A stretch of 34,547 nt of DNA, from the NCBI GenBank assembly GCA_913057515.1, contig CAJXOJ010000020.1, positions 1 through 34,547 of the forward strand. Direction: 5' to 3'. Of this stretch, positions 12,848 to 33,845 are shown piece by piece. This DNA is from an uncultured Cycloclasticus sp. (GTDB taxonomy: Bacteria; Pseudomonadota; Gammaproteobacteria; Methylococcales; Cycloclasticaceae). Both the position numbers and the translations under genes were made by a program. Numbering within the stretch: position 1 is the first letter of the stretch; each line of letters starts with the position of its first letter. A model generated the notes under the pieces. The model did not search any database. It was not told where the DNA came from and worked only from the letters and a program-made list of their open reading frames with translations.

Positions 12848-13270
12848 ATGACCAGAATCGACTTTTATGTGCTGCCAGATGACAAGCTTGAGGCGCAACA
12901 GCTTTTCGCCTGTCGACTAGCTCAAAAAGCCAGCAAACAAGGGCATCGCGTCTACATCCATACCGAGTCCAACAGTCAATCTAAAGCCCTAGATCAGTTG
13001 CTATGGTCATTTTCAGCCACCAGCTTTGTTCCTCACACGATGAACGCCGATGAGTGCGCCAACATGCCTGTCTATATCAATCACAGTGGTGACCCATTAG
13101 ATATTCACGATGTTTTGATTAACCTCTCTCAACAAACTCCAGAGTGCTTTGCCCGCTTTGAACGATTTGCTGAGCTTGTTAATCAAGATGAATCAATTAA
13201 ACAAGCTGGGCGAGAGCGGTTTAAGTTTTATAAGAGCAGGGGATACCCATTACAGACTCATAAAATTTGA
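12848..13270 (+). CDS. holC: DNA polymerase III chi subunit
   Basis: 140 residues, the family length. Chi bridges the clamp-loader psi subunit and SSB at the replication fork. Family features visible are the start TRIDFYVLPDD, the segment ACRLAQKASKQGHRVYIHTES, the pair LLWSFSATSFVPH, and the C-terminal GRERFKFYKSRGYPLQ. The last 20 codons are repeated 415 bases downstream as a remnant, so this 3' end has been duplicated or replaced. In enterics valS follows almost directly; here about 1 kb of repeat DNA intervenes. Confidence 0.95.
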   Translation: MTRIDFYVLPDDKLEAQQLFACRLAQKASKQGHRVYIHTESNSQSKALDQLLWSFSATSFVPHTMNADECANMPVYINHSGDPLDIHDVLINLSQQTPECFARFERFAELVNQDESIKQAGRERFKFYKSRGYPLQTHKI

Positions 13271-13321
13271 TTCTTATTATCGCTGCCGCTGGGCGTTCAT
13301 TTCCTTTTGTATGCCCAAAAG

Positions 13322-13377
13322 CACCTGAGGCATAAGTCTCATTAAGCAGATAGCGAATATCTGCCAAATTAGACTAA
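13322..13377. other. Small hairpin-bearing insertion inside repeat copy A
   Basis: Relative to copy B, where CCCAAAAG runs directly into TAACGAACCAAAG, copy A carries about 56 extra bases here. They contain a perfect 7-bp stem GCAGATA / TATCTGC with a 5-base loop (13346-13364), flanked by AGTCT (13335-13339) and AGACT (13371-13375). It looks like a nested insertion, though a deletion in copy B cannot be excluded. Confidence 0.5.
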
Positions 13378-13417
13378 AAACGAACCAAAGAAAAAGGCAC
13401 CCAACTACCGCTTATTT

Positions 13418-13508
13418 CCCATAAAACTCATTTGGTATTGTGTGAGCGCTAAACTCGCTATGCTCAGACAACGCGCTCACTCATCCAATACCAAATGAGT
13501 TTTATGGG
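13418..13508. repeat. Long perfect inverted repeat (hairpin A)
   Basis: Arms of 23 bases at 13418-13440 and 13486-13508 are perfectly complementary (CCCATAAAAC...GGTATTG against CAATACC...TTTTATGGG). The 45-base loop holds an inner 8-bp stem, GTGAGCGC (13442-13449) against GCGCTCAC (13473-13480), which encloses AACTCGCTATGCTCAGACA. No T tract follows, so it is not an ordinary intrinsic terminator. Confidence 0.9.
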
Positions 13509-13623
13509 CGCGATAAATGGTGGTTAAAATCAAAACCTGCTCTGCTCCACTCGCCTTGCCACACTGAAAATCTGATCATTAGAAGCACGCCTTATACTGC
13601 GTATATCAAAGAAAATTCAATCC

Positions 13624-13685
13624 GGCGAGAGCGGTTTAAGTTTTATAAGAGCAGAAGGTACCCGTTGAATACACATAAAATTTAA
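13624..13685 (+). pseudogene. Remnant second copy of the holC 3' end
   Basis: Bases 13624-13654 are identical to 13209-13239 inside holC (31 of 31). The following 65 or so bases remain about 80% alike, through the stop codon and into downstream sequence. The remnant reads RERFKFYKSRRYPLNTHKI then stop, against RERFKFYKSRGYPLQTHKI in holC, so most differences keep the amino acid. It has no start and no upstream part of the gene. It could be the displaced original tail left by an insertion at the holC 3' end, or a tandem duplication of tail plus repeat. Confidence 0.75.
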
Positions 13686-13695
13686 TTTTTATTAT

Positions 13696-13960
13696 TGCTG
13701 CCGCTAGGGTGTTCATTTCTAGTTAAGGTTTCGCCCTAAAGGTCGAGTGACTCTTTTGTCAATAGCAACAAAAGAGTAACCAGAAAAATGCCACCCGAAT
13801 GCTTTCACCCTGAAGGGTTCCTGCAAAACCAATCACTAAAATAGCTACTATGGAACTCGCCTAAAAAACAGACTCAAACAGCCACAGTAGAACTCTCTAT
13901 TTTAATGCTTATTTTTCAGTAAGAGCAAAAGGGGATATTAAAATCAAGACCGCTTCAGAT
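13696..13960 (+). repeat. Hairpin repeat element, copy M
   Basis: It follows the holC-tail remnant exactly as copy A follows holC: GCTGCCGCT, then GTTCATTTC. A separate small stem, CTCTTTTGT / ACAAAAGAG (about 13751-13776), comes next. The main hairpin (13837-13904) encloses AACTCGCC and CAGACTCAAACAG, a diverged version of the loop in copies A and B. The tail TTAAAATCAAGACCGCTT matches copy A's TTAAAATCAAAACCTGCT. It abuts the tail of copy B, which points the other way. Confidence 0.6.
13837..13904. repeat. Inverted repeat (hairpin M)
   Basis: The outer stem is TAAAATAG (13837-13844) against CTATTTTA (13897-13904), perfect. The inner stem is CTACTATGG (13845-13853) against CCACAGTAG (13882-13890), with one mismatch. 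The arms share no sequence with those of hairpins A or B, but the structure and the loop are related. Confidence 0.75.
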
Positions 13961-13984
13961 ATGGCTTTAGATTTACCGTCCCTT

Positions 13985-14151
13985 TATCTCGCAAGTAAAT
14001 TAACCTTTTTCGGATAAGTAAGCAGGTTGTCTGAGCGTAGCGAGTTTACCTGCGAGCCCGAAAACTGTTAATTTACTGATATTAGGGCACCCTTTTCTTT
14101 GGTTCGTTACTTTTGGGTGAACAAAAGAAATGAACGTCCTCGCGACAGCGA
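13985..14151 (-). repeat. Hairpin repeat element, copy B (inverted)
   Basis: Read on the minus strand it has the same order as copy A: CGTTCATTTC, TTTTGT, CCCAAAAGTAACGAACCAAAG, AAAAGGGTGCCC, the hairpin (13995-14076), then GCGAGATAAAGGGACGG. The head is uninterrupted here. It ends about 150 bases before the valS start, so copies A/M and B face each other across the holC-valS gap. Confidence 0.7.
13995..14076. repeat. Inverted repeat (hairpin B)
   Basis: Nineteen-base arms at 13995-14013 and 14058-14076 pair at 17 positions. The inner stem GCAGGT (14022-14027) / ACCTGC (14048-14053) encloses TTGTCTGAGCGTAGCGAGTT on the plus strand. This is the reverse complement of the hairpin A loop with one mismatch over about 22 bases. 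Confidence 0.85.
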
Positions 14152-14304
14152 AAAACCATAGATACTATGTCCGCAATAAAATTCACTGCAAACAATTTTT
14201 TTCTTGCGAAATATTATTACGTAAGAAAACTTGCTTACCAACAACTCCAACCCCATCAACAAAGCTATAATACCGCCTTTCAAAATCAACACCGAAGACA
14301 CACG

Positions 14305-17070
14305 ATGGATAAGACATACGCCCCACATGACATAGAATCTCGCTGGTATCGCCAATGGGAAGAACAAGGCTACTTTGAACCTAAAGGTGGCGACAGCGCT
14401 TATTGCATTATGATTCCGCCGCCCAATGTTACCGGTAGCTTACACATGGGGCACGCTTTCCAAGACACAATCATGGATTCGCTAACGCGTTACCACCGTA
14501 TGCAAGGCCACAATACTCTATGGCAAGCCGGTAGCGATCACGCCGGTATTGCGACCCAAATGGTGGTTGAACGCCAATTAAACGCGGAAGGTAAAACTCG
14601 TCACGACTTAGGCCGTGACGAATTTGTTGAACGTATTTGGGATTGGAAAGAATTGTCCGGCAATACGATTACCAAGCAATTGCGCCGCATGGGTACATCA
14701 CTTGACTGGTCACGCGAACGCTTCACCATGGACGAAGGCTTATCAAAAGCGGTTAACGAAGTGTTTGTTAAGCTCCACGAAGAAGGTTTAATCTATCGTG
14801 GCAAACGGTTAGTGAATTGGGACCCTAAGCTGCACACAGCCGTGTCTGATTTAGAGGTTATTTCACAAGAAGAACAAGGCCACATGTGGCACATGCGCTA
14901 TCCATTAGCCGATGGCAGCGGCGAGCTTATAGTTGCAACCACTCGCCCAGAAACCATGCTAGGCGATGCTTGTGTGGCTGTTCACCCATCCGACGAACGC
15001 TACCAGCACTTGATTGGTAAAATGGTCGCACTGCCTTTATCTAACCGTGAAATCCCTGTTATTGCCGATGATTATGTAGACCCTGAATTTGGTACGGGTT
15101 GTGTCAAAATAACCCCTGCGCATGACTTTAATGATTATGAGGTTGGCCAACGCCACGATATGCCGTTAATCAACATCTTCACCGTTGACGCCAGCATCAA
15201 TGATGAGATGCCAGAAAAATACCGTGGCTTGGATCGCGTGGCAGCGCGTAAACAAATCGTACAAGATTTGGATGATTTAGGCTTATTAGCTAAAATTGAC
15301 GACCATAAACTCATGGTGCCTCGTGGCGATCGGTCAGGTGTGATCATTGAACCTTTATTAACAGACCAATGGTTTGTTAAGGCCAAACCGCTGGCAGAAC
15401 CTGCTATTGAAGCGGTTAAAAGCGGCAAAATTAAATTTGTACCCGAAAACTGGGACAAAACCTATTACAACTGGATGAACGATATTCAGGACTGGTGTAT
15501 TTCTCGCCAAATTTGGTGGGGCCACCGTATTCCAGCTTGGTACGATGAAAACGGCAATATTTATGTTGGCCGCAACGAGGCTGAAGTACGTGAAAAAAAT
15601 AATCTAGCCGATAGCCTTGTCTTATCTCAAGATGAAGATGTATTAGACACTTGGTTCTCGTCCGCATTATGGCCATTCTCCACCCTTGGCTGGCCCGATA
15701 AAACACCTGAGCTTGATACTTTCTACCCCACCAGTGTATTGGTTACCGGTTTTGACATCATCTTCTTCTGGGTCGCTAGAATGATTATGATGGGCTTGAA
15801 GTTTATGGACGATGTGCCATTTAAAGAAATATACATTCACGGCTTAGTGCGCGATGCGGAAGGGCAAAAAATGTCCAAATCCAAAGGTAACGTACTCGAC
15901 CCGATTAATTTAATCGACGGTATTACGCTAGATGATTTACTTGAAAAGCGTACAAAAGGCCTTATGCAACCGAAAATGGCTGCTAAAATCGAGAAAGATA
16001 CCCGTAAGCACTTCCCCGATGGCATCCCTTCTTTTGGCACCGATGCGCTACGCTTTACCTTTGCCTCACTCGCCTCTACGGGGCGCGACATTCGCTTCGA
16101 CTTAAACCGAATTGAGGGCAACCGTAACTTCTGCAATAAACTGTGGAACGCTACTCGCTACGTGCTAATGAATACCGAAGGCGAAGATACCGGTTTAACC
16201 AACGAGCCTTGTATCTACAGCTTGCCAGATAAATGGATTGTGTCACGCTTACAAAAAACCGAAGCTAGCGTTATTGCCTCTATCGAAAAATACCGCTTCG
16301 ACTTAGCCGCACAATCTCTGTATGAGTTCCTTTGGAATGAATACTGTGATTGGTATTTAGAGCTATCAAAACCTATATTGCTTGATGACAATAGTTCAGC
16401 CGAACAAAAGCGTGGCACTCGCCAAACCTTAATTCGCGTGCTAGAAGCTGTGCTGCGTTTACTACACCCACTGATGCCGTTTATTACCGAAGAAATTTGG
16501 CAGCAAATCGCACCGCTGGCAGGTAAATCAGGCGATACCATTATGCTACAGCCCTACCCAAAACCTGACGACAGTAAAATATCATCCACTGCTGAAAGTG
16601 ATATGCAATGGGTGATGGATTTTGTGATGGGCATTCGCCAGATTCGTGGTGAGATGAACATTGCACCTAGCAAACCTTTGCCGGTGCTGTTAAATAATTG
16701 CTCCGAAGACGACCTCACTCGTTTAGATAATAATGAGATTTTAGTTAAAAAACTGGCCCGTTTAGACTCGATTACAACCTTAGGCATCAAAGAAGAAGCA
16801 CCGCAATCAGCCATCGCTTTAGTGGGTGATTTGCAGGTACTCATCCCGATGGCAGGGCTGATTGATAAAGAAGCCGAACTGGAGCGCCTAAACAAGGAAA
16901 TTGATAAACTCGAAAAAGAGAATGCTCGAATCAGCGGTAAGTTATCGAATGCTTCTTTTGTCGACAAAGCCCCTGCTGCCGTCGTTGAAAAAGAAAAAGA
17001 AAAGCAAAGCGATATTTCTTCCAAGCTAAAAAACCTAAACGAGCAAAAAGAGAAAATTGCGTCGCTATAA
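14305..17070 (+). CDS. valS: Valyl-tRNA synthetase
   Basis: 921 residues from the ATG at 14305. It charges tRNA-Val in the cytoplasm. Class I motifs: HMGH (HIGH) at 47-50 within [13 protein letters not shown], and KMSKS at 522-526. The CP1 editing domain lies between ([29 protein letters not shown]). The C-terminus (about 855-920) is a charged coiled-coil tRNA-binding arm. A longer in-frame reading from 14167 adds 46 residues unlike any ValS and overlaps the end of the repeat region, so the internal ATG, which gives [15 protein letters not shown], is chosen. The valS promoter must lie in or beside repeat DNA if holC read-through does not supply it. Confidence 0.97.
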
Positions 17071-20635: not shown

Positions 20636-21547
20636 CTATTTCTTAACACCAAGCCTTTTGTTGATTCCATCTTTAAGGCCAACATACATATTAGAAGTAT
20701 GTTTAACTCTATGCCGATGAAAAACCCCGAAATAGCTTATCGTTAAAATTAATTTTAGAACATTCTTATACTTCCAACTTATGGGAACATAGCTTTGCTG
20801 CTGCAAGAAAATGCTATTTCTAAACAAGTAATAATGTCTTTCAGGGGTTCTATCTGGCATGGTTCGCCAACCAAAAAACCAATATTTTATAGTCGACTCA
20901 CCCATCGAATGAGATAACAAAGCATCAAATGTTCCATAACACACATAACCAGCTGCTCTAGCTCTAAAACACCAATCCGTCTCTACGTGATCAATAAACA
21001 GCTCTTTATTATTCCCTCCTAATTCTTGCCAAGCCTCTAAGGGAATTAGGGAGCCAGAACTATTAATACCATCACATTGAAACATGCTATTGCCTGCATC
21101 CTCTTTATAAAAACGTTTTCCATTCTTTATAAAGCCGTAACGGCTTTCACAAAAAGCATCTTCTAATGCTGGCCCTATAACGCCAAGATTTACTCCATTA
21201 TTGATTAATTCATTCGCATATCCATGAAGCACTTCGATACAGTCATTAACTGGCACACTATCCTGGTCAAACAATAAAACAAAAACACCTATCTCTCCAT
21301 TTTTTATCGAATCAATAGCAATATTCTGTGCCTGAGCCAACCCAACATTAGAGGGCAAATACTGGGCAAGAATATTATTATATGTCGAACATAATGCTTG
21401 TAACGAACTAACATTGTCAGACCCGTTATCAACCAAAGTAACTTCATCAAACAATACAAGAGAGTCCACCAACTTCGTAAAATTCAAAATATCCGGGTTA
21501 TACGTAACAATGACAGGTATTACTTGTTGTAAATAATTATTTCTCAA
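20636..21547 (-). CDS. GT2 glycosyltransferase, rhamnosyltransferase-like
   Basis: 303 residues. GT-A domain: VIPVIVTYNPD at the start, LVDNGSD, NVGLAQAQN and the DXD-type LLFDQDSVP. The C-terminal RHYYLFRNSIFL is typical of RfbN-type rhamnosyltransferases of O-antigen clusters. The start is TTG at 21547 with AAGGA just upstream. It overlaps the flippase stop by four bases (TTGA), so it is translated in coupling with the flippase. It is the last gene of the minus-strand glycan operon. Rhamnose specificity is only a family tendency. Confidence 0.85.
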   Translation of the reverse strand: MRNNYLQQVIPVIVTYNPDILNFTKLVDSLVLFDEVTLVDNGSDNVSSLQALCSTYNNILAQYLPSNVGLAQAQNIAIDSIKNGEIGVFVLLFDQDSVPVNDCIEVLHGYANELINNGVNLGVIGPALEDAFCESRYGFIKNGKRFYKEDAGNSMFQCDGINSSGSLIPLEAWQELGGNNKELFIDHVETDWCFRARAAGYVCYGTFDALLSHSMGESTIKYWFFGWRTMPDRTPERHYYLFRNSIFLQQQSYVPISWKYKNVLKLILTISYFGVFHRHRVKHTSNMYVGLKDGINKRLGVKK

Positions 21548-23073
21548 AGTGTCCTTCTACTTTTAAATATACGTGGCCAAAGTTGACTAAGCTCAAATTG
21601 ACTAACTCCTAATAAAGGTTTCGAGATAAACCATACCCCCGTCCCTATACAAACTAAATAAACACCGCCTGACAAGAAGAACATTAATACACGTAACCCT
21701 TCAGTTTGCCAAAAAAAAGTTACAGCATAAAATGAAAAATAACCGGCCATTACTGTCAGCATTAAAATATATATTTGATACTTAAATTGATACTGCCAGT
21801 TTTGTTTTTTACACAAAAACCAAATGTATAAATTAACCGACAAAAACTGTAAAAAAACCATTTTAAGCGCTAAACCAATCGCACCTAAATCTAAACCAAA
21901 GCCAATAATACTTTTATCAGAAGGTACTAATACAAAATAAGTGACAATTACACTTACCAGCATGCTAACAACCCCTAATCGTGCATACGATATAGTCATC
22001 TCGAGAGCTAAATACATTGAGCTTACGACTTGACCAAGTGCTTGATGAACAGGGTAAAAAAACATCACTGTTAATACTGTCACACCCATCATATATTCTT
22101 CACCAAGGGTAACATCAATAATATCTGCAGCCCAGGGAACTAAAAACCCAGAAATCATTGCTGCGAAAAAAAACAGCCACCTGCACGTATTAAAATATAG
22201 TCGCTTTACTCTTTCCAAATTACCTCTATGAGCTTCTTCCGCAATCTCTTTCCATAAGACACGAAGAATAGATGTCGTCGCAAGTAAACTAATAGTAGCC
22301 ACTTGCAACGCCACAGAGAAGTAGGCCTGTTGAACCGAGCCAGCATAATGTTGAAGCATCCAAGCATCCGCAAAAATATAACCGCACATCACCCATGTAT
22401 ATAAAAACAAAGGGCGGCAGTATTTATAAAATTCTTTAAAAAAACCTTTTGCCGATAATTGGCTATCTGCAACATTAAAAACAATGATTTTTCGCCACGT
22501 ACTCAGTACATATATGAACGCCAATAAAAATTCTAATGCCACAAGAGTATATAAAATAAAAAGGCTTTTATAGCCTAATAAGATAACAACCAACACGGCA
22601 AGCAAGTGACTCATTGCTACTGTAATATTAATCAATTGAACTTTTTTGGTAAGTCGTTGTGACTCACCCAATTGCGCTATAAATCCCCATAAGGTGAACT
22701 GCATAAATGAAGCAATAAACGCTGCTATTATTAATTCTAATTCCCCCCCTTTCCATACGCTGATCAACCAATTATTAGAAAGACTAACAATCAAAATAAT
22801 GGGAATTAAAAATTGAGCACATATCCACAAAAAATAATATAAGAAGAATTTTTTTTCTCTAGGCTCCTTTGATACAAAAGTAAAAAAAGCATTTGAAGTG
22901 CCCATGTCGAATAATGCTCGAACAGCTACAAACGACGCTAGCAAAAAAGCAAAGTAACCATAGTCTTCTGGCCCTAAAGTCCGCGCGATAAGCAAACCCG
23001 TAACAAAAACCAGAAAGGCTTTAATTAAATTTCCTGCCAAATTAATTCCGAAACGCTCAGGTATTGAATTCAT
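21544..23073 (-). CDS. Oligosaccharide flippase (Wzx-like)
   Basis: 509 residues with about 12-14 hydrophobic helices and short loops. The N-terminal FGINLAGNLIKAFLVFVTGLLIARTLGPEDYGYFAFL stretch is characteristic of the polysaccharide-transport MATE/MOP superfamily. It would flip the undecaprenyl-linked repeat unit across the inner membrane for O-antigen or capsule assembly. ATG start at 23073. No wzy polymerase or ligase is visible in the window. Confidence 0.88.
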   Translation of the reverse strand: MNSIPERFGINLAGNLIKAFLVFVTGLLIARTLGPEDYGYFAFLLASFVAVRALFDMGTSNAFFTFVSKEPREKKFFLYYFLWICAQFLIPIILIVSLSNNWLISVWKGGELELIIAAFIASFMQFTLWGFIAQLGESQRLTKKVQLINITVAMSHLLAVLVVILLGYKSLFILYTLVALEFLLAFIYVLSTWRKIIVFNVADSQLSAKGFFKEFYKYCRPLFLYTWVMCGYIFADAWMLQHYAGSVQQAYFSVALQVATISLLATTSILRVLWKEIAEEAHRGNLERVKRLYFNTCRWLFFFAAMISGFLVPWAADIIDVTLGEEYMMGVTVLTVMFFYPVHQALGQVVSSMYLALEMTISYARLGVVSMLVSVIVTYFVLVPSDKSIIGFGLDLGAIGLALKMVFLQFLSVNLYIWFLCKKQNWQYQFKYQIYILMLTVMAGYFSFYAVTFFWQTEGLRVLMFFLSGGVYLVCIGTGVWFISKPLLGVSQFELSQLWPRIFKSRRTL

Positions 23074-23135
23074 TTAATACTTAATATTTGATAATCTAAA
23101 AAAGTAAATATCATATTGATTTTGACTGCTGCAAC

Positions 23136-24740
23136 TCATTTCAAAAAGCCATCAATAATGGCACTAACCCTTTCTATAGTATTCGAACAACTCGACGAGT
23201 AGTAATCAACTAATTTTGGACTTTGGGTCGCCTTTTTTTCAATCATACGACTCGATATGTTGGGCATTAAGTCATCCAGCTCACGGACGCTTGATATAAC
23301 CGTTAAAAGCGCTGCCATATCTTTTTCAACGTCCTTATTAACGAATCGCAGTATATCGCCAAACAAAATAATGTTTTTTTTCTTTAAAATATCTTTGCTG
23401 GAAAATTCGCTGGAAAAATAGTCACCCAATATATATGTTGATTTCTCAATCAAATGAAATAAATCTGAGACATAATCAATTGAGACGTTCGGATACTTTT
23501 TAGCCATTTCTTTCAATGGAACATACATTTGTCCACCCAAGAACAACCCTGGTTTCACTTTTACACATAACTTCACACTCGGGTAACACTCACCAAACAG
23601 CTCAATCACTTCCTTATGACGTGAAAATATATTCTCTCCAGTGGCAGAAAGTACCGACTTCTCACTAGCATTTAAGATGCCCGGGTAACTATAACGAGAA
23701 CAATACGTTATATATAAAAACTCATATTCACACGCTCTCTCTTTCAGTTTTTTATCAAAAAATATTGAGCCCACGTTATGAACATTACTACCGCCTTGTT
23801 GCTCTATAAGAGCCTTTGAGAAATCATTAAAGGTTAAATTTATATCTGCAGGAATGGCCTCATTATGTTTTAAGAAATAATTTTCGTTAACGTAGGCGCC
23901 ATGCTGCATCATAATCACAGGGATGTTGTTTCGTTTATAGCTTTCATAACGAAAAAACATTTGTTTTCCGTGTAAAAAAATAAACGGCCTATAAGCTGTC
24001 CCAACTGACTTAGTTGCCGGCGTACAAAAATCATGTTTGAGCATGCCCCGAAGAATAGGATTGGAAATAATCTTGGCACTTTCTTTTAGAAATCCCTTAT
24101 AAGCGGCATCGCTAAATGATGAGTTCGTGACGTTTATATTTATCTTTTTCTTTATATATTTATCTTTAAGAAACTTATTATCGTACGTGTATTGATTATC
24201 CTTTAAGAAAAATCTTATGAATTTCTTAACGCTTTCCAACGGTCTGCGAGCAATGAATCTCAGAAGTGATACGAGGTAAAACTTTTCATCTCTTTCAACT
24301 TGAATAACGGATTTAAAATTAACGAATACACTTAGCATTGTGTCCACGGTAAATAGCGCCTTACCTTGAGAATCCGTAATATATATGGCGTCAAACTGAC
24401 TAATATGTTTTTGGAGCGCGCTAATAAAGCTATCAAGCGATATATATTTAGCCAATTCACTGAGAATATACGAGCCATGTTGCAAATTTTTAAAATGGAT
24501 CGAATTCTCAACTCTCTTGTATTTATCTATAATCTCCGAATGAAGATCTGCATCATCAACAAGACATGAAAAACGTTTAAACCTGATATTTAACTTTTCT
24601 AAAACAAATGTCGAATAAGGTGTAAGAGAAATGACCTCATCAAAGCCACTCAGTCGCTTTGTGAAAACGATTTCATCTTTGATTTTTTTTCTTAAATCTA
24701 GAAATACAACCTTTCGCTTCACAGTACTTTCATTCGCCAA
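23136..24740 (-). CDS. Putative glycosyltransferase of unclear family in the pseudaminic acid cluster
   Basis: 534 residues, soluble and lysine-rich, with DNA AT-richer than its neighbours. I do not recognise the family with certainty. The C-terminal half looks GT-B-like: PFIFLHGKQMFFRYESYKR then VIMMQHGAYVNENYF, a lone KVKPGLFLGG, and a late DLFHLIEKSTYILGDYFSSEF region resembling the donor-binding part of capsule or polysialic acid type transferases. It starts TTG at 24740, overlapping the pseI stop by 11 bases; no good Shine-Dalgarno is visible, so coupling to pseI is likely. Its place directly after pseI makes it the best candidate for the enzyme that transfers pseudaminic acid from CMP. 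This is inference from context. Confidence 0.65.
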   Translation of the reverse strand: MANESTVKRKVVFLDLRKKIKDEIVFTKRLSGFDEVISLTPYSTFVLEKLNIRFKRFSCLVDDADLHSEIIDKYKRVENSIHFKNLQHGSYILSELAKYISLDSFISALQKHISQFDAIYITDSQGKALFTVDTMLSVFVNFKSVIQVERDEKFYLVSLLRFIARRPLESVKKFIRFFLKDNQYTYDNKFLKDKYIKKKININVTNSSFSDAAYKGFLKESAKIISNPILRGMLKHDFCTPATKSVGTAYRPFIFLHGKQMFFRYESYKRNNIPVIMMQHGAYVNENYFLKHNEAIPADINLTFNDFSKALIEQQGGSNVHNVGSIFFDKKLKERACEYEFLYITYCSRYSYPGILNASEKSVLSATGENIFSRHKEVIELFGECYPSVKLCVKVKPGLFLGGQMYVPLKEMAKKYPNVSIDYVSDLFHLIEKSTYILGDYFSSEFSSKDILKKKNIILFGDILRFVNKDVEKDMAALLTVISSVRELDDLMPNISSRMIEKKATQSPKLVDYYSSSCSNTIERVSAIIDGFLK

Positions 24741-25806
24741 GAAATTTGTATTCCAAAGCCGTCCCTTTAGAAATATTCACTTTTGCCTTTTGCCCTATAA
24801 TCTTTTCATAGTCCTTCACAGGCAGCCCGAACCCTGGCCGGATACTTTTTACATTTTCTTTTGTTATAAGCTCGCCAGCATCGATGTTTCTTACCGCATA
24901 TAAGGAACGCCTAAACTTTGCATTGTTTATTTCACTGGCCTTTTTAATGTAGCTTGCGTGCCCTATAGCACCCCACGCCTCCTTCAAATCTAAACATAAT
25001 GATTTCAGTTCAATGGGCTCCAAAGAGAAGCTATCGTCCACGCCACCGCCTTCTCGATCTAAGGTGACGTGCTTTTCTACAGCGCACGCCCCCAGAGCAA
25101 CACTTGTAATTGCTGTGATATTGCTGATTGTGTGGTCTGATAGACCCACTGGCAGAGAAAAACGTGCTTGCATGTCTTGCAGCGTACTTAAATTATAATC
25201 TTCGGTAGGTGCGGGATACCCACTTACACAGTGCAATAAAACCAACGCTTCACAACCGCCTTCTTTAGCGGCATCAATAGCCTCTTGGATTTCTTCTGCA
25301 CTTCCCATCCCAGTAGACATAATGATCGGTTTACCTGTTTGCGCAACATATTTAATTAATGGTAAATCAACCATTTCAAAAGAGGCAATTTTATAACAAG
25401 GCACATTAATTTTTTCAAGGAAATCTACAGCGGTTGTGTCAAACGGTGAACTAAAAGCAACTAGCCCTAAGCTATTTGCTTTTGCAAAAATTTCTTTGTG
25501 CCACTTCCACGGCGTATGCGCCTTGTCATACAAATCATAAAGCGACTCCCCATCCCACAAACTATTTTTATCTCTGATAGTGAAATCGTCACTATTTAAG
25601 TTCAATGTCATTGTATCTGCTGTGTATGTTTGAAGTTTTAACGCATGAGCCCCCGCTTTTGCGACCTCTTCTACAATTAACAATGCGCGTTCTAAAGACT
25701 GATTATGATTCCCTGACATCTCAGCTATTACAAAAGGTGGCTCACCTTTACCCACTTTATAACGCCCTATTTGTACTGTTTTTTGCATATTAATACCTAC
25801 CATCAT
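24730..25806 (-). CDS. pseI: Pseudaminic acid synthase
   Basis: 358 residues. It condenses the 2,4-diacetamido-trideoxy-altrose made by PseG with phosphoenolpyruvate to give pseudaminic acid. A NeuB-type TIM barrel has PPFVIAEMSGNHNQSLERAL near 23-42, KLQTYTADTM, SSPFDTTAVDFLE, IMSTGMGS, LLHCVSGYPAP and GLSDHT, followed by a SAF domain (from about 295, SLYAVRNIDAGELITKENV). The motifs fit PseI better than NeuB. The ATG at 25806 overlaps the upstream oxidoreductase stop as ATGA. An ATG at 25788, with AGGT seven bases before it, is an alternative start giving 352 residues. Confidence 0.95.
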   Translation of the reverse strand: MMVGINMQKTVQIGRYKVGKGEPPFVIAEMSGNHNQSLERALLIVEEVAKAGAHALKLQTYTADTMTLNLNSDDFTIRDKNSLWDGESLYDLYDKAHTPWKWHKEIFAKANSLGLVAFSSPFDTTAVDFLEKINVPCYKIASFEMVDLPLIKYVAQTGKPIIMSTGMGSAEEIQEAIDAAKEGGCEALVLLHCVSGYPAPTEDYNLSTLQDMQARFSLPVGLSDHTISNITAITSVALGACAVEKHVTLDREGGGVDDSFSLEPIELKSLCLDLKEAWGAIGHASYIKKASEINNAKFRRSLYAVRNIDAGELITKENVKSIRPGFGLPVKDYEKIIGQKAKVNISKGTALEYKFLGE

Positions 25807-26849
25807 TTTCCAAACTCGGCATAAATAGACTTAAATATGTCGTTCATAAACCAATCTTTCGTATTGCTTTTACCCTGAATTGACAGGTTAGAAAATGAAT
25901 CCATCGCTAAATCATATTGATACTTAGAAGACTTTACGAACTCATGCGTGAATTTAGGAAACCCTTGTTGAATACATTCCGTATGTTGAAACAAGACATT
26001 TGATTTCTTTGCTACCAATTTCATTTTTATTAAATCTTGCCACACATCCTTTTTTGAATTTTCTAAATCTAATGCTTCTTTACTCAAAACTTCAACCGTA
26101 ACTCTATGACGCTCTGTATTCGCGGAAATCACCGATTGGAGGTTAGAATACAACGTAACACGAAATGGAAGTAAGTTCGGCTCATAACAGTAAAGATAGT
26201 GATTTTGGTTTAAAGGCGGCTGATCAATAACATAATGGAAAAGTGTTGTATGCACGAAAGAGGGGCGCTCTGTTTTACACTTAATTTCTGCAGCTCGAAA
26301 AAGGAAAATTAAAGGCACCGTCCATACTAAAATATCACAATTCACCTTAACCCCATCATCCAAAGTAAGTGACTGAATCGTCTTATCGTTTGAATCCATA
26401 CCTAATATGGATCTGCCACATAATATTTTAACACCTACATCGCGTAATTTCTTTTCAAGCGCCAATGTCCACTGACCTACACCACCCTTGGAAGGGTAAT
26501 ATAGCGGACAAGTTGATAAAGCATCCTTGGTCGTGTGATAACTCATCCTGGCGTCATACGATGGGATGTTTTTAATCAGTTTAGTCGACGCTTCGTTTAA
26601 GACTTTCAATCTCTTTAACCCAAAACGTAAATGGGCACCCGTAACGATTTCATTTAAAGAGTCCACACAAAGTAACTTTTGCAAGACAGGAGTGAAAATT
26701 TCAGTCGCAAAAGTAACGCCAAATGTCCCGTTCAATTCTTCTTTGACGTTATTAAACTTGACATCGTCATCCACAACTTCTAAAAAATCACTTAATCCAT
26801 GATAGTAAGCATTCCCTATGTCCTTGGCATTAATAAAAAACGCCATCAC
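25803..26849 (-). CDS. FAD-dependent oxidoreductase, C-terminal part of a frameshifted gene
   Basis: 348 codons open from a GTG at 26849, but the protein is the continuation of the 26830-27135 fragment in another frame. It lacks the FAD-binding Rossmann start and carries the substrate and cap regions of an amine-oxidase/UGM-like flavoprotein (SKGGVGQWTLALEKKL, VNCDILVWTVPLIFLF). Removing one T from the six-T run at about 26835-26840 (read on the minus strand) joins both parts into one protein of about 443 residues. It overlaps pseI by four bases, so the intact gene would belong to the pse operon. The substrate is unknown, perhaps a nucleotide sugar. Confidence 0.7.
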   Translation of the reverse strand: MMAFFINAKDIGNAYYHGLSDFLEVVDDDVKFNNVKEELNGTFGVTFATEIFTPVLQKLLCVDSLNEIVTGAHLRFGLKRLKVLNEASTKLIKNIPSYDARMSYHTTKDALSTCPLYYPSKGGVGQWTLALEKKLRDVGVKILCGRSILGMDSNDKTIQSLTLDDGVKVNCDILVWTVPLIFLFRAAEIKCKTERPSFVHTTLFHYVIDQPPLNQNHYLYCYEPNLLPFRVTLYSNLQSVISANTERHRVTVEVLSKEALDLENSKKDVWQDLIKMKLVAKKSNVLFQHTECIQQGFPKFTHEFVKSSKYQYDLAMDSFSNLSIQGKSNTKDWFMNDIFKSIYAEFGK

Positions 26850-27135
26850 TTAAAGAATTTCTAAAGAAATTACCCCCTTTTTCATTAGCAAAAAACTGCC
26901 AGTCTTCTCGTAAATCTTCACTTAAAATTACATTGTCAATCGCCTCAACCCCTGTACCTACAATAAAATGAGTGCCGTAATCAAACCAATCCCCATGTTC
27001 GTTTTTAGTTGAACGTAATAATCCACCTAATGAATCGTCTTGCTCAATCAAGTACACAGTCTCATAACTTTTTCTTAACAAAAGCGCACTGTAAATTCCT
27101 GCAATGCCTCCACCAACAACTACCGCTGTTTCCAA
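26830..27135 (-). CDS. FAD-dependent oxidoreductase, N-terminal fragment (frameshifted)
   Basis: 101 residues. It has the dinucleotide-binding start AVVVGGGIAGIYSALLL, then IEQDDSLGGLLRS and FDYGTHFIVGTG. These mark the FAD-binding domain of an amine-oxidase or UDP-galactopyranose-mutase-like flavoprotein. It ends in a TAA shortly after a run of six T, and the rest of the protein is in the next frame. The start is TTG at 27135 with a strong AAGGAG upstream. As it stands the fragment has no catalytic part. It may be an assembly error, a phase-off allele or a dead gene. Confidence 0.75.
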   Translation of the reverse strand: METAVVVGGGIAGIYSALLLRKSYETVYLIEQDDSLGGLLRSTKNEHGDWFDYGTHFIVGTGVEAIDNVILSEDLREDWQFFANEKGGNFFRNSLSDGVFY

Positions 27136-27221
27136 TTTATCTCCTTAAAATTATTAGAGTATTTTTGTAAGAACACGCATAATGATTATTTAAATACTCT
27201 TAATTCTAGCTACTTTTTATT

Positions 27222-27833
27222 ATGTCGTTAAAAAAACACTATATAAATTTATTTCAAAAAAATGGAGCGAACCATAACGCTGTACAGTACAGCTCTGCAG
27301 AAAGCCAATATAAACGTTTTGAAATATTGTGCGAGCTAATTCGCCCTACCGACAAAGTCCTAGATTTAGGTTGTGGGTTGGGTGATATGCTTACCTTTTT
27401 AAGGCACAAAAAAGAGTTTAAAGGCACTTATTTAGGCCTTGATTTTGTCCCTGACTTTATCCATCACGCTCAGACTGCGTTTCAAGATGACTTGAACTCC
27501 TCCTTTAGTCTCTTCGACATACAACAAGATCCCCTACCTGAAAATTACGATGTCATACTTTTAAGTGGCGTTTTTAATAATGAAATGGAAGACAATTGGG
27601 ATTTTATAACAAATAGCTTAATAAAAATGCACGCAGCTTCTAACCGTGTGGTTACATTTAATGCGTTATCTACGTATGTGGATTATCAAGATAAAGGACT
27701 TTATTACACCGACCCCTTAAAGCTATTTCATTTTTGTAAAAATGAATTATCTGCCTTCATTACTTTACGGCATGATTACTTAGTTAAAGAAAATTCTATT
27801 CCTTTTGAATTTACTATGCACTTAAATAAATGA
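27222..27833 (+). CDS. Class I SAM-dependent methyltransferase
   Basis: 203 residues. The Rossmann motif I KVLDLGCGLGDML lies near residues 45-57, with YLGLDFVPDFI as motif II and YDVILLSGVFNN as the motif IV region. Substrate unknown. It reads against the surrounding pse genes and overlaps the wbqC-like gene by four bases (ATGA). The pair forms a small two-gene unit, which suggests they act on the same molecule, probably a sugar precursor or a glycan end. The ATG at 27222 has no clear Shine-Dalgarno. Confidence 0.82.
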   Translation: MSLKKHYINLFQKNGANHNAVQYSSAESQYKRFEILCELIRPTDKVLDLGCGLGDMLTFLRHKKEFKGTYLGLDFVPDFIHHAQTAFQDDLNSSFSLFDIQQDPLPENYDVILLSGVFNNEMEDNWDFITNSLIKMHAASNRVVTFNALSTYVDYQDKGLYYTDPLKLFHFCKNELSAFITLRHDYLVKENSIPFEFTMHLNK

Positions 27834-28516
27834 CTACCGCTGTCATTATGCAACCCACCTATATACCGTGGATGGGATACTTTAATCTTATCTCCCAAGC
27901 TGATCATTTTGTGTTTCTTGATGACGTTAAAATTGAAAAGCAGTCGTGGCACGTTAGAAATAAGGTATTAAATCAAGGTGAAGAACATCTTATAACGCTA
28001 CCCATTCTAGGCTCTAGAAATCAAGCATTAAACCAGGTCGCTCTTGATGAAAACCAGAACTGGAGAGAAAAACATAGCAAACTTATCACTCATTTATATC
28101 GCAAACATGAACATGGTTTAGATATGTTGAACACTATTTTGCCTCTAATTAATGATAAGAAGATTATCACCTTGGTAAACCTTAATACTAGCATCATCAT
28201 GTCCATCGCAAAAAAACTAGAATTCAAGCCGGTTTTTCATTTTTCAAGTAACTTGAACATCACTGCACCTCGCACTCAGCGATTGGTCTCAATTTGCCAC
28301 CAACTTGAATGTAATAACTACTTAAGTCCAATGGGTTCTAAAGAGTATATTGAGCAAGACGGTGATTTTGCGCCATCAGCCATAGACGTTGTCTTTCAAA
28401 ATTTTTCTCCTCAGCCCTATCCACAAAAAAATGTCACTCCTTTTGTCCCTTATCTTTCTATCATTGATATGGTTGCAAACATAGGTTGGGCTGACGCCGC
28501 CCGTAAAACACAATAA
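27830..28516 (+). CDS. WbqC family protein
   Basis: 228 residues. The WbqC pattern is clear at the N-terminus: AVIMQPTYIPWMGYFNLISQADHFVFLDDVKIEKQSW. Later come the family stretches TAPRTQRLVSICHQLECNNYLSPMGSKEYI and PYPQ...FVPYLSIIDMVANIG. Members occur in O-antigen clusters; the biochemical activity is not established. Translation is coupled to the methyltransferase just upstream. It converges with pseG, with nine bases between the stops. Confidence 0.85.
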   Translation: MTTAVIMQPTYIPWMGYFNLISQADHFVFLDDVKIEKQSWHVRNKVLNQGEEHLITLPILGSRNQALNQVALDENQNWREKHSKLITHLYRKHEHGLDMLNTILPLINDKKIITLVNLNTSIIMSIAKKLEFKPVFHFSSNLNITAPRTQRLVSICHQLECNNYLSPMGSKEYIEQDGDFAPSAIDVVFQNFSPQPYPQKNVTPFVPYLSIIDMVANIGWADAARKTQ

Positions 28517-28525
28517 CCGTTTAAC

Positions 28526-29554
28526 TTATAGCTGATCTAAGACGACACGCGCTAATGGTTGAAACACATCGACAGGGTATACAAGCACTTGCTGCTCACG
28601 CATTATTTGTCTTTTCTTTTGAGAAAGCCTCTTGAGCGATACTTTTACTTCTTCTTTGTCGAACTGAGAAGCCAAACCAAGACTCAACGTTACCCCTTCT
28701 TTTTCTAAAACTAACGTATCTTGCTGTTGCTCTCTCGTTTGTGAAAGCGTTGCATTGGGAATCGCGCAATAACTTGCTTCGTACTTAAGCAAACCTCCAC
28801 CTGAAACAATCAAATCAACATTGGTCATTTTTTTGTGAACATCTGTACACAAACATTCAATATTTATTAACTCTGTACCTTTATAGCGTTCATTCAGCGT
28901 GACGACCAATGATTCGTCGGATGACAACAGCGTAATGCGTGCTAAATTAAAAACTAACGCGACTGTTTTGAGTAATTCAAGACTTACCCCGAATAAGTCT
29001 TTACCCCCTAAACATATCAATATATGTTCAACTTTTTGTTCTACCTGTTGACCTTGATTCTTCCGGCGTATGGATTCGAACTCTAAATTCACGGGGAAAA
29101 ATTGAGGGCCTAACGCACGCGTTCTTGCGGCATAATTAAACATTTCTGTTGCACCCACCCTAAAATTAATCACTAACTGGGCGTCTGAATAATCTAATAA
29201 CTCAAAGTCATCTAAGACGCCCCATTTAAGGGCTTTAGCTGATAACTCGTTATAAAAACTCTGCGGCAAAGTGTAACTATCCATAAGCAAAAAATCTGCT
29301 TCTTGGAAGCCAAGCACCTCTAAAACATAAGCCGTATTAAAAACGTCTATCGGCAATTGGATAAAATCAAATGCCGACGCTTGCATCCTATCTAGGGCGT
29401 ACTGCTCATAATGACCAATGAAGACAACACGCACCATTGAATCAAATTTTCGAACAATGGTCGCCAACGCCATACATCTTGACAAATGCCCCAAACCACT
29501 CCGCACATTACCATCGCAATACACACACAAACGCCCCATAGTACTAACGAGCAT
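28526..29554 (-). CDS. pseG: UDP-2,4-diacetamido-2,4,6-trideoxy-beta-L-altropyranose hydrolase
   Basis: 342 residues. It removes UDP from the acetylated intermediate to give the free sugar used by PseI. MurG-like GT-B fold with the family start CDGNVRSGLGHLSRCMALA, where His23 matches the catalytic His of PseG. The C-terminal part has the nucleotide-binding ILICLGGKDLFG and VDLIVSGGGLLKYEASYCAIP. There is no fused acetyltransferase domain, unlike some PseG-PseH fusions. It starts 18 bases after the pseF stop, at the ATG at 29554; the ATG at 29539 is an alternative. Confidence 0.88.
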   Translation of the reverse strand: MLVSTMGRLCVYCDGNVRSGLGHLSRCMALATIVRKFDSMVRVVFIGHYEQYALDRMQASAFDFIQLPIDVFNTAYVLEVLGFQEADFLLMDSYTLPQSFYNELSAKALKWGVLDDFELLDYSDAQLVINFRVGATEMFNYAARTRALGPQFFPVNLEFESIRRKNQGQQVEQKVEHILICLGGKDLFGVSLELLKTVALVFNLARITLLSSDESLVVTLNERYKGTELINIECLCTDVHKKMTNVDLIVSGGGLLKYEASYCAIPNATLSQTREQQQDTLVLEKEGVTLSLGLASQFDKEEVKVSLKRLSQKKRQIMREQQVLVYPVDVFQPLARVVLDQL

Positions 29555-29572
29555 CCCTACATATTCCGAACA

Positions 29573-30268
29573 CTACTGAGCCCCTGCCAATAGTAGTGAG
29601 TACATTAATTCCGCTCTTTTCCAATCATCCAACGTATCAATATCTTGCACCAAATACGTCGGTAAAAACAAAGGAATCGTCGCATCAGAATAAAAATTTT
29701 TATTCTTAAGATACGCCTCCGCTCGCCCCCAATAAAACAACCCTGCATCGTGATATGCGAGCTCTAAATCTTGAGAGCGTTTTTCAATTGACTCTTTATC
29801 GAATGGTTCAATTCCTCCATTTTCTGTCACCTTAAGCGCTCGTTGAATTGGAAAATCAAACGCCGTCGCCGCAAAACAATAATCCTTCTTAGTGTCTATG
29901 AGTAAAGCCAACCCATCTTGGAGCATGCTTGGGGTGACGAAAGGTGCCGTGGCATATAAACAGCAGACACGCTCAATGCGTTTATCGTTATTAAGGCACC
30001 ATTGTATAGCATGCCGAACGACGTTATCTGTTCCTTGGTAATCATCAGCTAATGCTTTAGGCCTTATAAAAGGCACATCCGCACCACACTCTATTGCCAC
30101 ATCGGCAATATCTTCATTATCTGTCGATACGATCACTGAATCAAAACATTCACTGTCTAACGCCGCTTGAATTGAGTAAGCAATAATAGGCTTCCCATGA
30201 AATGGTTTAATGTTCTTGGACGGAATCCTTTTGCTCCCTCCGCGCGCTGGAATAATGCAAACGTTCAC
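29573..30268 (-). CDS. pseF: Pseudaminic acid cytidylyltransferase
   Basis: 231 residues. It activates pseudaminic acid with CTP to CMP-pseudaminate. The CMP-sugar synthetase motif IIPARGGSKRIPSKNIKPF (5-23) is intact, followed by IIAYSIQAAL and STDNEDIADVA; ATAPFVTPSML is the family middle segment. The GTG start at 30268 overlaps the pseC stop (GTGA), showing coupled translation. NeuA-type sialic acid activation is the main alternative, but the pse neighbours favour PseF. Confidence 0.93.
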   Translation of the reverse strand: MNVCIIPARGGSKRIPSKNIKPFHGKPIIAYSIQAALDSECFDSVIVSTDNEDIADVAIECGADVPFIRPKALADDYQGTDNVVRHAIQWCLNNDKRIERVCCLYATAPFVTPSMLQDGLALLIDTKKDYCFAATAFDFPIQRALKVTENGGIEPFDKESIEKRSQDLELAYHDAGLFYWGRAEAYLKNKNFYSDATIPLFLPTYLVQDIDTLDDWKRAELMYSLLLAGAQ

Positions 30269-31425
30269 TGTAAAACCGCGGAAAGCTCGCTGACAACACG
30301 TTCTTGCTGGGTTTCAGTTAAGCCCGAATACATCGGTATACTGATCGCACGTTTATAATACTCTTCAACATTTGGACACGTCGTTTGTTTTACACCTAAC
30401 CGTCGAAAATAGGGGTGCTTATAAACGGGAATATAGTGCAAATTAACACTCAACTCTTTTTCTCTAAGTTCACTGAAGACTTGGGCATGTGTTTTATTTA
30501 GTCGCTCTAAATCAAGCAAAATAGGGTAGAGATGCATCGACGAAACACACTCTTTTGCTTGATAAGGTAAGAAAACGGGCAAAGCTTTTAACGCTACATC
30601 GTAGCGTTTTTTTATCTGATGTCGAATCTCTATAAACTTTTCTAGCCTTTGCATTTGACTACTACCTAACGCCGCTTGCACGTCCGTCATACGGTAATTG
30701 TAACCCAGTTCAATTTGTTCGTAATACCAACCGCCATCAGGAATGTTTTCCATCCGGCGAGGGTCTCTTGTCACACCATGACTCCTTAACAATTTCATTG
30801 TAGCAGCCAGCTTTTCATCATTCGTAGTCGCTATACCCCCTTCCGCTGTCGTAATGATTTTTACAGGATGAAAGCTAAAAACGGTTATGTCGGCATATTG
30901 ACAACAGCCAATGGGGTTATTGTCATATTTTCCACCAATTGCATGAGCCGCATCTTCAACGATTTTAAATTTATATTGTTGGCTTAATTCATGAATACGC
31001 TTCATGTCACACGACTGCCCAGCAAAGTGCACCGGCATAACAATTTTTGGTAGTTTGTTTTCTTTCTTCGCAGTTATCAACTTGCGCTCTAACGCATCTG
31101 CACAAAGATTGTATGTTTGGAGGTCGATATCAATAAAATCCACCTGCGCCCCACAATAACGAGCGCAGTTTGCCGACGCGACAAATGTGTTGGGGCTCGT
31201 CCAAAGCCAATCCCCATCACCTAGCCCAAGCGACTTACAAGCGAGATGTAAAGCAGATGTTGCACTATTGGTTGCCACTGCATAGTTCACGTTGCAGTAA
31301 TCCATAATGTTTTTTTCAAACAATGGTACTTGCGGCCCTTGAGTCAAAAAATCAGACTCTAAAACTTTTATAACCGCATCAATATCTACCTGATTAACAT
31401 CCTGCTTTCCATAAGGAATAATCAT
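30265..31425 (-). CDS. pseC: UDP-4-amino-4,6-dideoxy-N-acetyl-beta-L-altrosamine transaminase
   Basis: 386 residues. PLP-dependent DegT/DnrJ/EryC1 aminotransferase that converts the PseB 4-keto product to the 4-amino sugar. Visible are SATSALHLACKSLGLGDGD, EDAAHAIGG with the PLP-binding Asp, and the Schiff-base Lys189 in VFSFHPVKIITTAEGG. The start MIIPYGKQDVNQVDIDAVIKVL is typical of PseC. ATG at 31425. Confidence 0.95.
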   Translation of the reverse strand: MIIPYGKQDVNQVDIDAVIKVLESDFLTQGPQVPLFEKNIMDYCNVNYAVATNSATSALHLACKSLGLGDGDWLWTSPNTFVASANCARYCGAQVDFIDIDLQTYNLCADALERKLITAKKENKLPKIVMPVHFAGQSCDMKRIHELSQQYKFKIVEDAAHAIGGKYDNNPIGCCQYADITVFSFHPVKIITTAEGGIATTNDEKLAATMKLLRSHGVTRDPRRMENIPDGGWYYEQIELGYNYRMTDVQAALGSSQMQRLEKFIEIRHQIKKRYDVALKALPVFLPYQAKECVSSMHLYPILLDLERLNKTHAQVFSELREKELSVNLHYIPVYKHPYFRRLGVKQTTCPNVEEYYKRAISIPMYSGLTETQQERVVSELSAVLQ

Positions 31426-31515
31426 CTAATTACAATGTGTTTGTTATTTAGTTTTTTAACCATGGTTTAAAGTTTAATCCATATTTTTTTTGACTAACAT
31501 TTAAGAGCATTTGAC

Positions 31516-32589
31516 TCATGTAGATTTTCTTTTCAACAACAACAGTTCTGAGTGGTAACCATCAACCGTCGTAAATCCAAATGGAAGCACATTTCTCTCA
31601 ACCAAGTCATAATCTGGCAACATGGCTATATAGTCATCCGTAAGAATTGGCACTTCCACACCAACTGAGCCCGCCCCTTTTTTTATTTGCTTGCCTTCTC
31701 GCATATTACGCAATAAGACCCACTTAGTTTTAAGCCGAGAGACATGTTTTAAGTAATTTTCTACTATATGTGGCTCCATCTCTTGAAAAGAAATAAAGTT
31801 AACGAACAAATCAACTTCACCTACAACTCTCTCAATTTGCCAGGAACATAAAACAGAAGCCATTGGTAGCGCCTCAATATCAATTTCCGCAAGCTCCTTT
31901 GTTTGGGCATACGTTGCTACATTTTCTTCACCTAGAACTCCCGTCAAATAATACTGCGCAACAAAACTAGTAGGGGGTATATCAATATCAATATAGCGTA
32001 AATTTGGTATTTTCGTGCTGCTTAAAACTTCGCCTAAACTCCCAAAGCCCCCCCCAATTTCCAATACATTTTCAACCTCACTCTCACCAAGGTGTTTTTT
32101 CAAAAAGGCTAGGCCCAACAGATAGTTCAATGAAGAGCGGCTGAAAAATCTTGAACCAAATTCAAAGCGTTCAACTGGACTCCCAACTGAGCTCTCAGAG
32201 AACAAATGCAAGAAAGGCGGACTCTTCTCATTATCTGATGCTTTTAGAACCCGATAATCAGCCATTGCCGATGCCTGCCCATTCAAGAAATTTTCTAACG
32301 CCAGTTTTGGTTTGTTTATTTTAAGAGCACTATCCTCAAGCCCTTGAATCAAATAATTTGTTTGCTCTTTGGAAAAAAAATTTCCCGGACAACCATAAGT
32401 GGGCACAAAATAACTTAATGGCAGCCGATAGGACCGAAAATGCTCTACGCCTAGCCTACAAATTTCCTCTGCTATCTTCAATGTAGCTTCACGCCAAAAT
32501 GAAGATGGCACATAAATTTCTTTCTGTAATGCCATGTCATCCAGAGCAAGAAGCAGTTCACTAAAGTATTTTTCGTTACTATTAAACAT
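31516..32589 (-). CDS. Putative sugar O-methyltransferase
   Basis: 357 residues. The SAM-binding motif I VENVLEIGGGFGSLGEVL (near 178-195) is followed by RYIDIDIPP. The C-terminus WVLLRNMREGK...GVEVPILTDDYIAMLPDYDLVERNVLP matches the putative sugar O-methyltransferase family seen in glycan clusters. It sits between pseB and pseC in the same direction, so it probably modifies pseudaminic acid or a neighbouring sugar. ATG start at 32589. Substrate not determinable. Confidence 0.75.
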   Translation of the reverse strand: MFNSNEKYFSELLLALDDMALQKEIYVPSSFWREATLKIAEEICRLGVEHFRSYRLPLSYFVPTYGCPGNFFSKEQTNYLIQGLEDSALKINKPKLALENFLNGQASAMADYRVLKASDNEKSPPFLHLFSESSVGSPVERFEFGSRFFSRSSLNYLLGLAFLKKHLGESEVENVLEIGGGFGSLGEVLSSTKIPNLRYIDIDIPPTSFVAQYYLTGVLGEENVATYAQTKELAEIDIEALPMASVLCSWQIERVVGEVDLFVNFISFQEMEPHIVENYLKHVSRLKTKWVLLRNMREGKQIKKGAGSVGVEVPILTDDYIAMLPDYDLVERNVLPFGFTTVDGYHSELLLLKRKST

Positions 32590-32713
32590 TTTTCATACCA
32601 ATATTTAATTTAACAAAGCCTGATTGTAAATCATTAGTTTATGCATCCATATATACCTAAATGTCTTTTTAAGTTCATCATCCAACTAATATTGCTCAGC
32701 TTAACCACCAACC

Positions 32714-33845
<1,132 letters not shown>

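Follow-up and report, generated by a model that had tools for sequence, protein, structure and literature searches.

A dispersed family of bacterial hairpin elements with a conserved apical loop and covarying arms, inserted between holC and valS in an uncultured Cycloclasticus

The closest described systems to the hairpin elements reported here are the palindromic repeats dispersed in bacterial genomes. REPINs and the GTAG-tagged REPs that go with RAYT genes are similar in being, according to the passages of the source papers used here, dispersed intergenic palindromes that form inverted doublets, combine a conserved core with a covarying paired part and are patchily distributed (PMC3116915, PMC3733652, PMC6006769). 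The TIR repeats of TIRYT genes, described in Stenotrophomonas, are comparable in that some are self-complementary and clustered (PMC3733652). Bacterial MITEs such as ERIC, NEMIS and Nezha, which PMC3733652 names, are similar in being non-coding and intergenic, with inverted ends, beside genes. Finally, template-switch mutation at quasipalindromes produces homogenised arms, multibase compensatory changes and spacer inversion in the parts of two papers that describe it (PMC8794818, PMC8604942).

We analysed a 34,547-nt stretch (contig C20, hereafter the window) of the draft genome of an uncultured Cycloclasticus sp. (2.475 Mb in 97 contigs, 89.9% complete), in which a sequence-only reading had noticed three hairpins sharing a loop, with differing self-complementary arms. 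They belong to a non-coding and apparently unnamed family, of which we found no description in the open-access literature, either by sequence motif on both strands or by concept. The papers listed for the motifs are unrelated by title, and the concepts led to work on REPs, REPINs and template switching in which no title or opening of an abstract describes this element. A study of hairpins and cruciforms across 118,019 genomes also exists (PMC13155455). ERIC, NEMIS and Nezha are clade-specific MITEs with conserved stems, whereas here the loop is common across phyla and the stems vary. The units measure about 200 nt in Clostridium sp. KNHs205 (genome G073), as opposed to the 20-40 bp given for REPs in the excerpts cited above. 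Unlike REPINs as those excerpts present them, they are conserved at the apical loop and not at the foot, have no GTAG at the foot and no linked RAYT; GTAG is absent from the foot in both the A1 and the A2 consensus and occurs on the complementary strand only inside the apical loop when its free base is T. Close neighbours are mostly paired convergently, as in REPIN doublets (PMC3116915, in part). TIR repeats are defined by a flanking Y1 gene in the relevant passages of PMC3733652 and the loci scanned here are not, a separation by description. Quasipalindrome mutation, as described in the cited excerpts, is a mutation process and not an element; in the present case it operates on a family of scattered repeats, single copies of which bear its footprints. 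The element works like a REPIN or a MITE but fully meets neither definition, and it belongs with the mobile palindromic repeats.

The hairpin units between holC and valS

The feature sits between two genes that we take, from their translations, to be holC (12848-13270) and valS; its parts are listed in Table 1. All three hairpins lie where the sequence-only reading had placed them. The arms of A (13418-13446 with 13480-13508) and of B (13994-14013 with 14058-14077) are complementary to the extent given in Table 1. When the hairpins were folded as single-stranded DNA and compared with 200 dinucleotide shuffles, no shuffle was as stable as A or B; M was matched by 5 of 200 and, at z -2.2, lies by itself only weakly beyond chance. 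The loop AACTCGCTAYGCTCAGACA occurs twice in the window, exactly in A (+) and in B (-), against 0.01 occurrences expected with up to three mismatches allowed, and M carries an expanded form of it (AACTCGCC..CAGACTCAAACA). M can be recognised as a member of the family because at least five relatives (L009, L017, L019, L025, L036) show a comparable second half, also inverted, whose expanded loop is similar but not identical to that of M.

Table 1. Parts of the feature in the window (positions count from the first base of the window)
Feature	Position	Strand	Content or basis
A unit	13281..13537	+	head (CGCTGCCGC..GTTCATTTC), hairpin A, tail TTAAAATCAAAACC
Small optional hairpin module within A head (GCACCTGAGGCATAAGTCTCATT..AGACTAAAA)	13321..13378	+	by reading
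Hairpin A	13418..13508	+	inverted repeat I2, arms 93% complementary; fold z -8.1
Conserved loop of A	13452..13470	+	loop pattern search
holC 3' end remnant (last 21 codons, 81% aa)	13620..13682	+	runs into M-B composite (compare relative G014)
M-B composite: two convergent hairpin units, inverted ends	13692..14154	.	inverted repeat I4; relatives
Hairpin M	13825..13916	+	inverted repeat I6; relatives; fold z -2.2; loop 13854-13880
Hairpin B	13994..14077	-	inverted repeat I5, arms 90% complementary; fold z -3.7
Conserved loop of B	14028..14046	-	loop pattern search
Head of B, inverted copy of A head	14080..14154	-	inverted repeats I3, I4, I7

The hairpins had been read as three separate copies with a common head. 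A is indeed a separate unit, whereas M and B turned out to be the halves of one composite, the inverted ends of which span 29 nt at 79% (I4). A and B share their head, but the head of M resembles theirs only in part. By reading, the small head module recurs in the heads of L010, L026, L030 and L032, in the last as two in tandem. This module is about 60 nt long with a varying stem of its own, and a similar stretch is inserted into an apical loop in L265 (2570-2760). Elsewhere in the window, 20636-33706 appears by eye to be a surface-glycan gene cluster (NeuB-, PseB- and PseC-like proteins), and the ORFs 25803-26849 and 26830-27135 look like one protein split over two frames.

The neighbourhood of holC could be compared across the genus, where the gene is present in 15 of the 16 genomes searched (our own included). 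Among these 15, the gap to valS is filled in six (our own, G010 at L383, G001 at L384, G014 at L387, G007 at L389 and G005 at L391), empty in six (L388, L390, L392, L393, L394, L396) and uncalled in three, with other DNA in the gap of L385 and valS not seen in L386 and L395. Because orthologous sites are both filled and empty, A and M-B are inserted DNA; the empty sites that the sequence-only reading had proposed to look for do exist, and the states of the gap show directly that insertion has taken several forms at this one site. In G014, the holC tail is directly continuous with the M-B composite, matching positions 13626-14399 of the window at 90% identity. M-B has the same orientation in G000 and G014 and is inverted in G010. 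The window itself contains the holC 3' end and head twice (13209-13293 and 13624-13708, 86%). Given the continuity in G014, the second holC tail probably marks an old junction that predates the A unit, which would have been added later. The exact insertion target at holC-valS is not readable, with diverged flanks.

Beyond this gap, the loop pattern was found in 17 of 61 genomes, 14 of the 18 in the genus (our own included) and 3 of the 43 elsewhere in the order. A reversed-pattern control gave no match in our own genome or in the genus and order, 14-genome and 150-Pseudomonadota scans. Most copies read have a head (GTTCATTTCTTTTG..CCAAAAGAAACGAACCAAAGAAAAGG), stem, loop and a tail resembling GCGCGATAAAGGG in common; other subtypes are represented by L022, L023, L031, L033 and one copy of L034. 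In our own incomplete genome the pattern occurs at this site only, so the family shows itself in the relatives. The predicted further copies thus exist there and in many other bacteria, though not elsewhere in this assembly, and the family claim does not fail for want of them.

Copy number, spread and the form of the loop

The loop AACTCGCTNCGCTCARACA with locus-specific complementary arms is present in at least seven phyla as judged by record titles, which we take to be Pseudomonadota, Bacteroidota, Bacillota, Desulfobacterota, Fusobacteriota, Patescibacteria and the Cyanobacteria-related Gastranaerophilales. Scanning the representative contigs of GTDB yielded at least 118 stretches with the loop. 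Among the matches listed, 108 of 136 loop places had an arm score of at least 6, compared with 5 at the 95% level and 7 at the 99% level for swapped arms. With a gapped aligner and with viral, relative and genome loci pooled, 140 of 206 distinct places, which include related strains and coding sequence, scored above the 99% level of arms swapped between loci. Of the scored loci assigned by title, 59 of 75 exceeded the 99% control level, which roughly one locus would be expected to pass by chance; L191 is the sole locus for Fusobacteriota and L128 that for Gastranaerophilales, and a Nitrospirales case is weaker (L176, 10.8). Many titles refer to metagenome bins, where contamination is possible. 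Isolates with several to many copies are found in Clostridium, Flavobacterium, Marinobacter, Haemophilus and Variovorax.

Copy number is patchy. Fourteen genomes selected for having a match carry 5 to 75 copies (at most one mismatch), and a Stenotrophomonas genome (G061) has 7 loops. Of 150 evenly drawn Pseudomonadota genomes, 6 contain the exact loop, our own included, and counts differ inside genera, with 28 and 0 in two genomes of g37 and 8 and 0 in g42. BLAST against plasmids and phages with four versions of the family found three records in all: a large replicon of Variovorax, a fragment from Comamonas and a phage match of 39 nt. By a crude ORF caller, and unchecked, 43 of 164 places fall inside a frame of at least 90 residues. 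A further 23 are at contig edges, and the remaining 98 lie in tandem (58), convergent (25) or divergent (15) gaps. Neighbours within 400 bp of each other are convergent in about 22 of 24 cases (duplicates merged by hand).

Since the search pattern fixes 17 positions, conservation of the loop cannot be judged from pattern matches. Retrieval from G073 by one arm alone nevertheless returned a loop with at most one mismatch in 26 of the 30 best copies. In G073 a unit forms a hairpin of some 200 nt that averages 87 Watson-Crick pairs over 40 copies. Its internal loops are kept in position and sequence, and by eye such loops differ between clades. Of 140 scored loops, 136 have A, T or G at the free position of the apical loop and 4 have C; read on the complementary strand, this base is the centre of GNA in GC-GNA-GC, an unusually stable DNA mini-hairpin. 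Several M-type loops (e.g. L009, L025, L036) have other tips between TGTTTGA and GAGTT, and L017 and L019 depart from this form. At six G073 loci (L325, L332, L337, L359, L360, L361) short tandem repeats such as (AGGTT)n stand directly left of the hairpin foot.

How the arms stay paired

The arms of A, M and B had been called unrelated. This holds between the three subtypes, whereas within the genus B-type arms align with one another and covary by base-pair replacement. In the A2 alignment of 21 copies, from which A, L019 and L034 had been removed beforehand, 94.2% of cells are paired against 79.2% after shuffling, a percentage that leans towards structure because the structure was derived from the same alignment. 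Both-sided changes affect 11 of 24 pairs, where shuffling gives 7.5, and 68 cells, where it gives 16.7 and 0 of 500 shuffles reached the observed number. Sliding the partner by one column lowers pairing to 48-57%. Among 39 aligned G073 copies with 83 consensus pairs (L328 and L352 removed beforehand), 53 pairs have changed on both sides; paired columns differ by a mean of 17.6% between copies, and 5.8% of pairs within copies are non-Watson-Crick. The covariation in the arms that the sequence-only reading had asked for is therefore present in both sets.

The same reading had offered two causes, selection on structure or the rebuilding of one arm from the other, and both find support. For the change spectrum, two G073 stem pairs below 70% Watson-Crick were left out. 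Of the 269 double-changed cells, 148 are transversions and 121 transitions; counting each new type once per pair gives 45 and 36 (of 81), and A2 gives 39 and 28. Paths through G.U are expected to favour transitions, an expectation uncalibrated here. Moreover, when 61 distinct G073 copies were checked for three features, 54 were standard, 4 were loop variants and 3 bore footprints of copying. In L429 an internal loop on the 3' arm is replaced by the complement of the 5' arm, L442 shows the reverse at another internal loop, and L352 has an inverted duplicate of the apical loop (the script flagged its internal loops because it had been read in the opposite orientation). L431, L432 and L435 share one derived loop insert, and their arms are different yet self-matching. 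These three findings, the double-change spectrum, the single-copy footprints and the shared insert with different arms, favour arm copying.

Copying does not account for everything. Pure copying predicts the same share of transversions among standing mismatches as among double changes, but of the 121 one-step mismatches of G073 only 34 are transversions and 87 are transitions (17 and 13 in A2). Selection or repair hence also eliminates transversion mismatches. Furthermore, G.T exceeds A.C on the strand opposite to the written one, by 59:31 in G073 (35:12 counting isolated mismatches), 51:32 in the wide set and 10:7 in A2. This bias is not expected from pure copying and suggests that the folded strand in question is under some selection, as DNA or RNA. 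A control on 14 poorly trimmed tRNAs (G.T 13, A.C 5, other 12) was dropped.

The explanation we favour, with slightly better than even confidence, is that A and M-B are non-coding, non-autonomous mobile fold-back elements, which insert between genes singly or as convergent pairs, have their arms rewritten by template switching and keep their loops for a putative trans-acting factor. The element would fold as single-stranded DNA, and its loop strand TGTYTGAGCGNAGCGAGTT would form the GC-GNA-GC mini-hairpin above tandem G.A pairs. The folded loop and the internal loops would be recognised in trans by a putative enzyme or host factor, which would both spread the element and hold the loops fixed. 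During replication, the polymerase may switch template within the hairpin and copy one arm onto the other, by which a mutation in one arm would be either removed or written into both. Such copying would let the arms drift in sequence yet remain paired, with no wobble intermediate needed. Several results speak against this explanation: no mobilising gene among the recurring neighbours looked at, no clear target-site duplication, an orientation bias that is weak or absent, copying footprints in only 3 of 61 copies, and the 43 places inside a reading frame.

The covariation and the loops could also be those of a structured RNA family, a transcribed element whose helices are made to covary by the need of the RNA to fold around its conserved loops. 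Variable helices with conserved apical and internal loops are RNA-like, covariation is strong in G073 and A2, and the G.T excess on the opposite strand would fit. We nonetheless consider this reading unlikely. The wobble excess is about 2:1 to 3:1, where a structured RNA might be expected to show a stronger one, and double transversions outnumber double transitions. Copies range from 0 to 28 inside one genus and occupy tandem, convergent and divergent gaps. At the gathering score, Rfam returned no family for the element in the window or in 20 loci (one tRNA lies elsewhere in L241), and a permissive search of the region gave five matches far below cut-off (best E 0.0046), to two microRNA families, purD and a Streptococcus sRNA.

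Candidates for the mobilising factor

Among recurring neighbours we found no mobilising gene in the 25 protein clusters looked at, of the 51 that span at least two loci. By eye, the largest neighbour cluster (9 loci) consists of ABC ATPases and a four-locus cluster of sensor kinases; others belong to one shared prophage or are host genes at orthologous sites. An autonomous form suspected in L133 (2842-4457) and L179 (25-1641) was rejected, as by eye ordinary genes lie between the copies. In these unrelated organisms, two same-strand copies lie 1597 and 1598 bp apart, respectively. An orientation bias against replication is weak in G073 (45/67) and absent in the wide set (64/113); a first replication-strand count of 35/40 is not relied on, since it fell to 29/40 once bases nearer the element were excluded.

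It is also conceivable, though quite improbable, that the composite is a MITE of a DDE transposon, with its inverted ends as transposase sites and the hairpins as passengers. Composites with inverted ends occur in this genus and, by reading, in Variovorax. However, single hairpin units dominate the G073 and Flavobacterium copies read, and the hairpin loop is common to phyla whose heads differ. Among the neighbours we saw no autonomous partner with the same ends, and no clear target-site duplication was seen at the flanks, which are diverged or AT-rich.

That a Y1 (RAYT) transposase moves the elements, as REPINs or TIRtrons, seems very unlikely to us, even though REPINs are known to form inverted doublets and to show compensatory changes (PMC3116915, in the part used here). 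Y1 genes occur in the genus, and one adjoins two copies (L265). Nevertheless, of 14 genomes that carry the element, 4 lack any match to Y1_Tnp, including G065 with 29 copies and G068 with 27. Among 42 chosen Y1 loci the exact loop lies nearby in only two (L265, L279), in neither as flanking ends, and a third has it with three mismatches; the gene in L265 has ends of its own, and the match in L279 is a fragment with stops, below the family cut-off. On these grounds, Y1/RAYT was rejected as a general partner. The Y1 transposase gene at L265:1620-2450 is bounded by AGGGTCAGAGTAAAAT/TTTTACTCTGACCCC, ends that fit the GGGGWSAS motif given for TIRYT genes in a passage of PMC3733652.

That the hairpins are ordinary terminators or 3'-end hairpins of adjacent genes is scarcely credible: several copies do begin straight after a stop codon and divergent gaps are the rarest class, but the region holds one weak terminator-like site against 0.8 expected, in line with the sequence-only reading, orthologous sites are empty, and the loop is common to several phyla.

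More tentatively, and with somewhat less than even confidence, the family, with members in at least seven phyla, may be bacterial mobile DNA of an ancient class whose hallmark is neither its ends nor its stems but one folded loop (TGTYTGA, a tip hairpin, GAGTT). An enzyme that reads the folded strand would spread it, and continual template-switch rewriting of its arms would keep it paired. Covariation is widely regarded as proving that an RNA helix is functional. In this natural family the majority of pairs covary, but the spectrum of changes and the footprints in single copies point to copying between DNA arms, so that the family can serve for testing how the two are told apart. With the loop, members can readily be searched for in any genome, and isolates rich in copies (Clostridium sp. 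KNHs205, Marinobacter and Flavobacterium sufflavum) make it practical to look for the mobilising factor.
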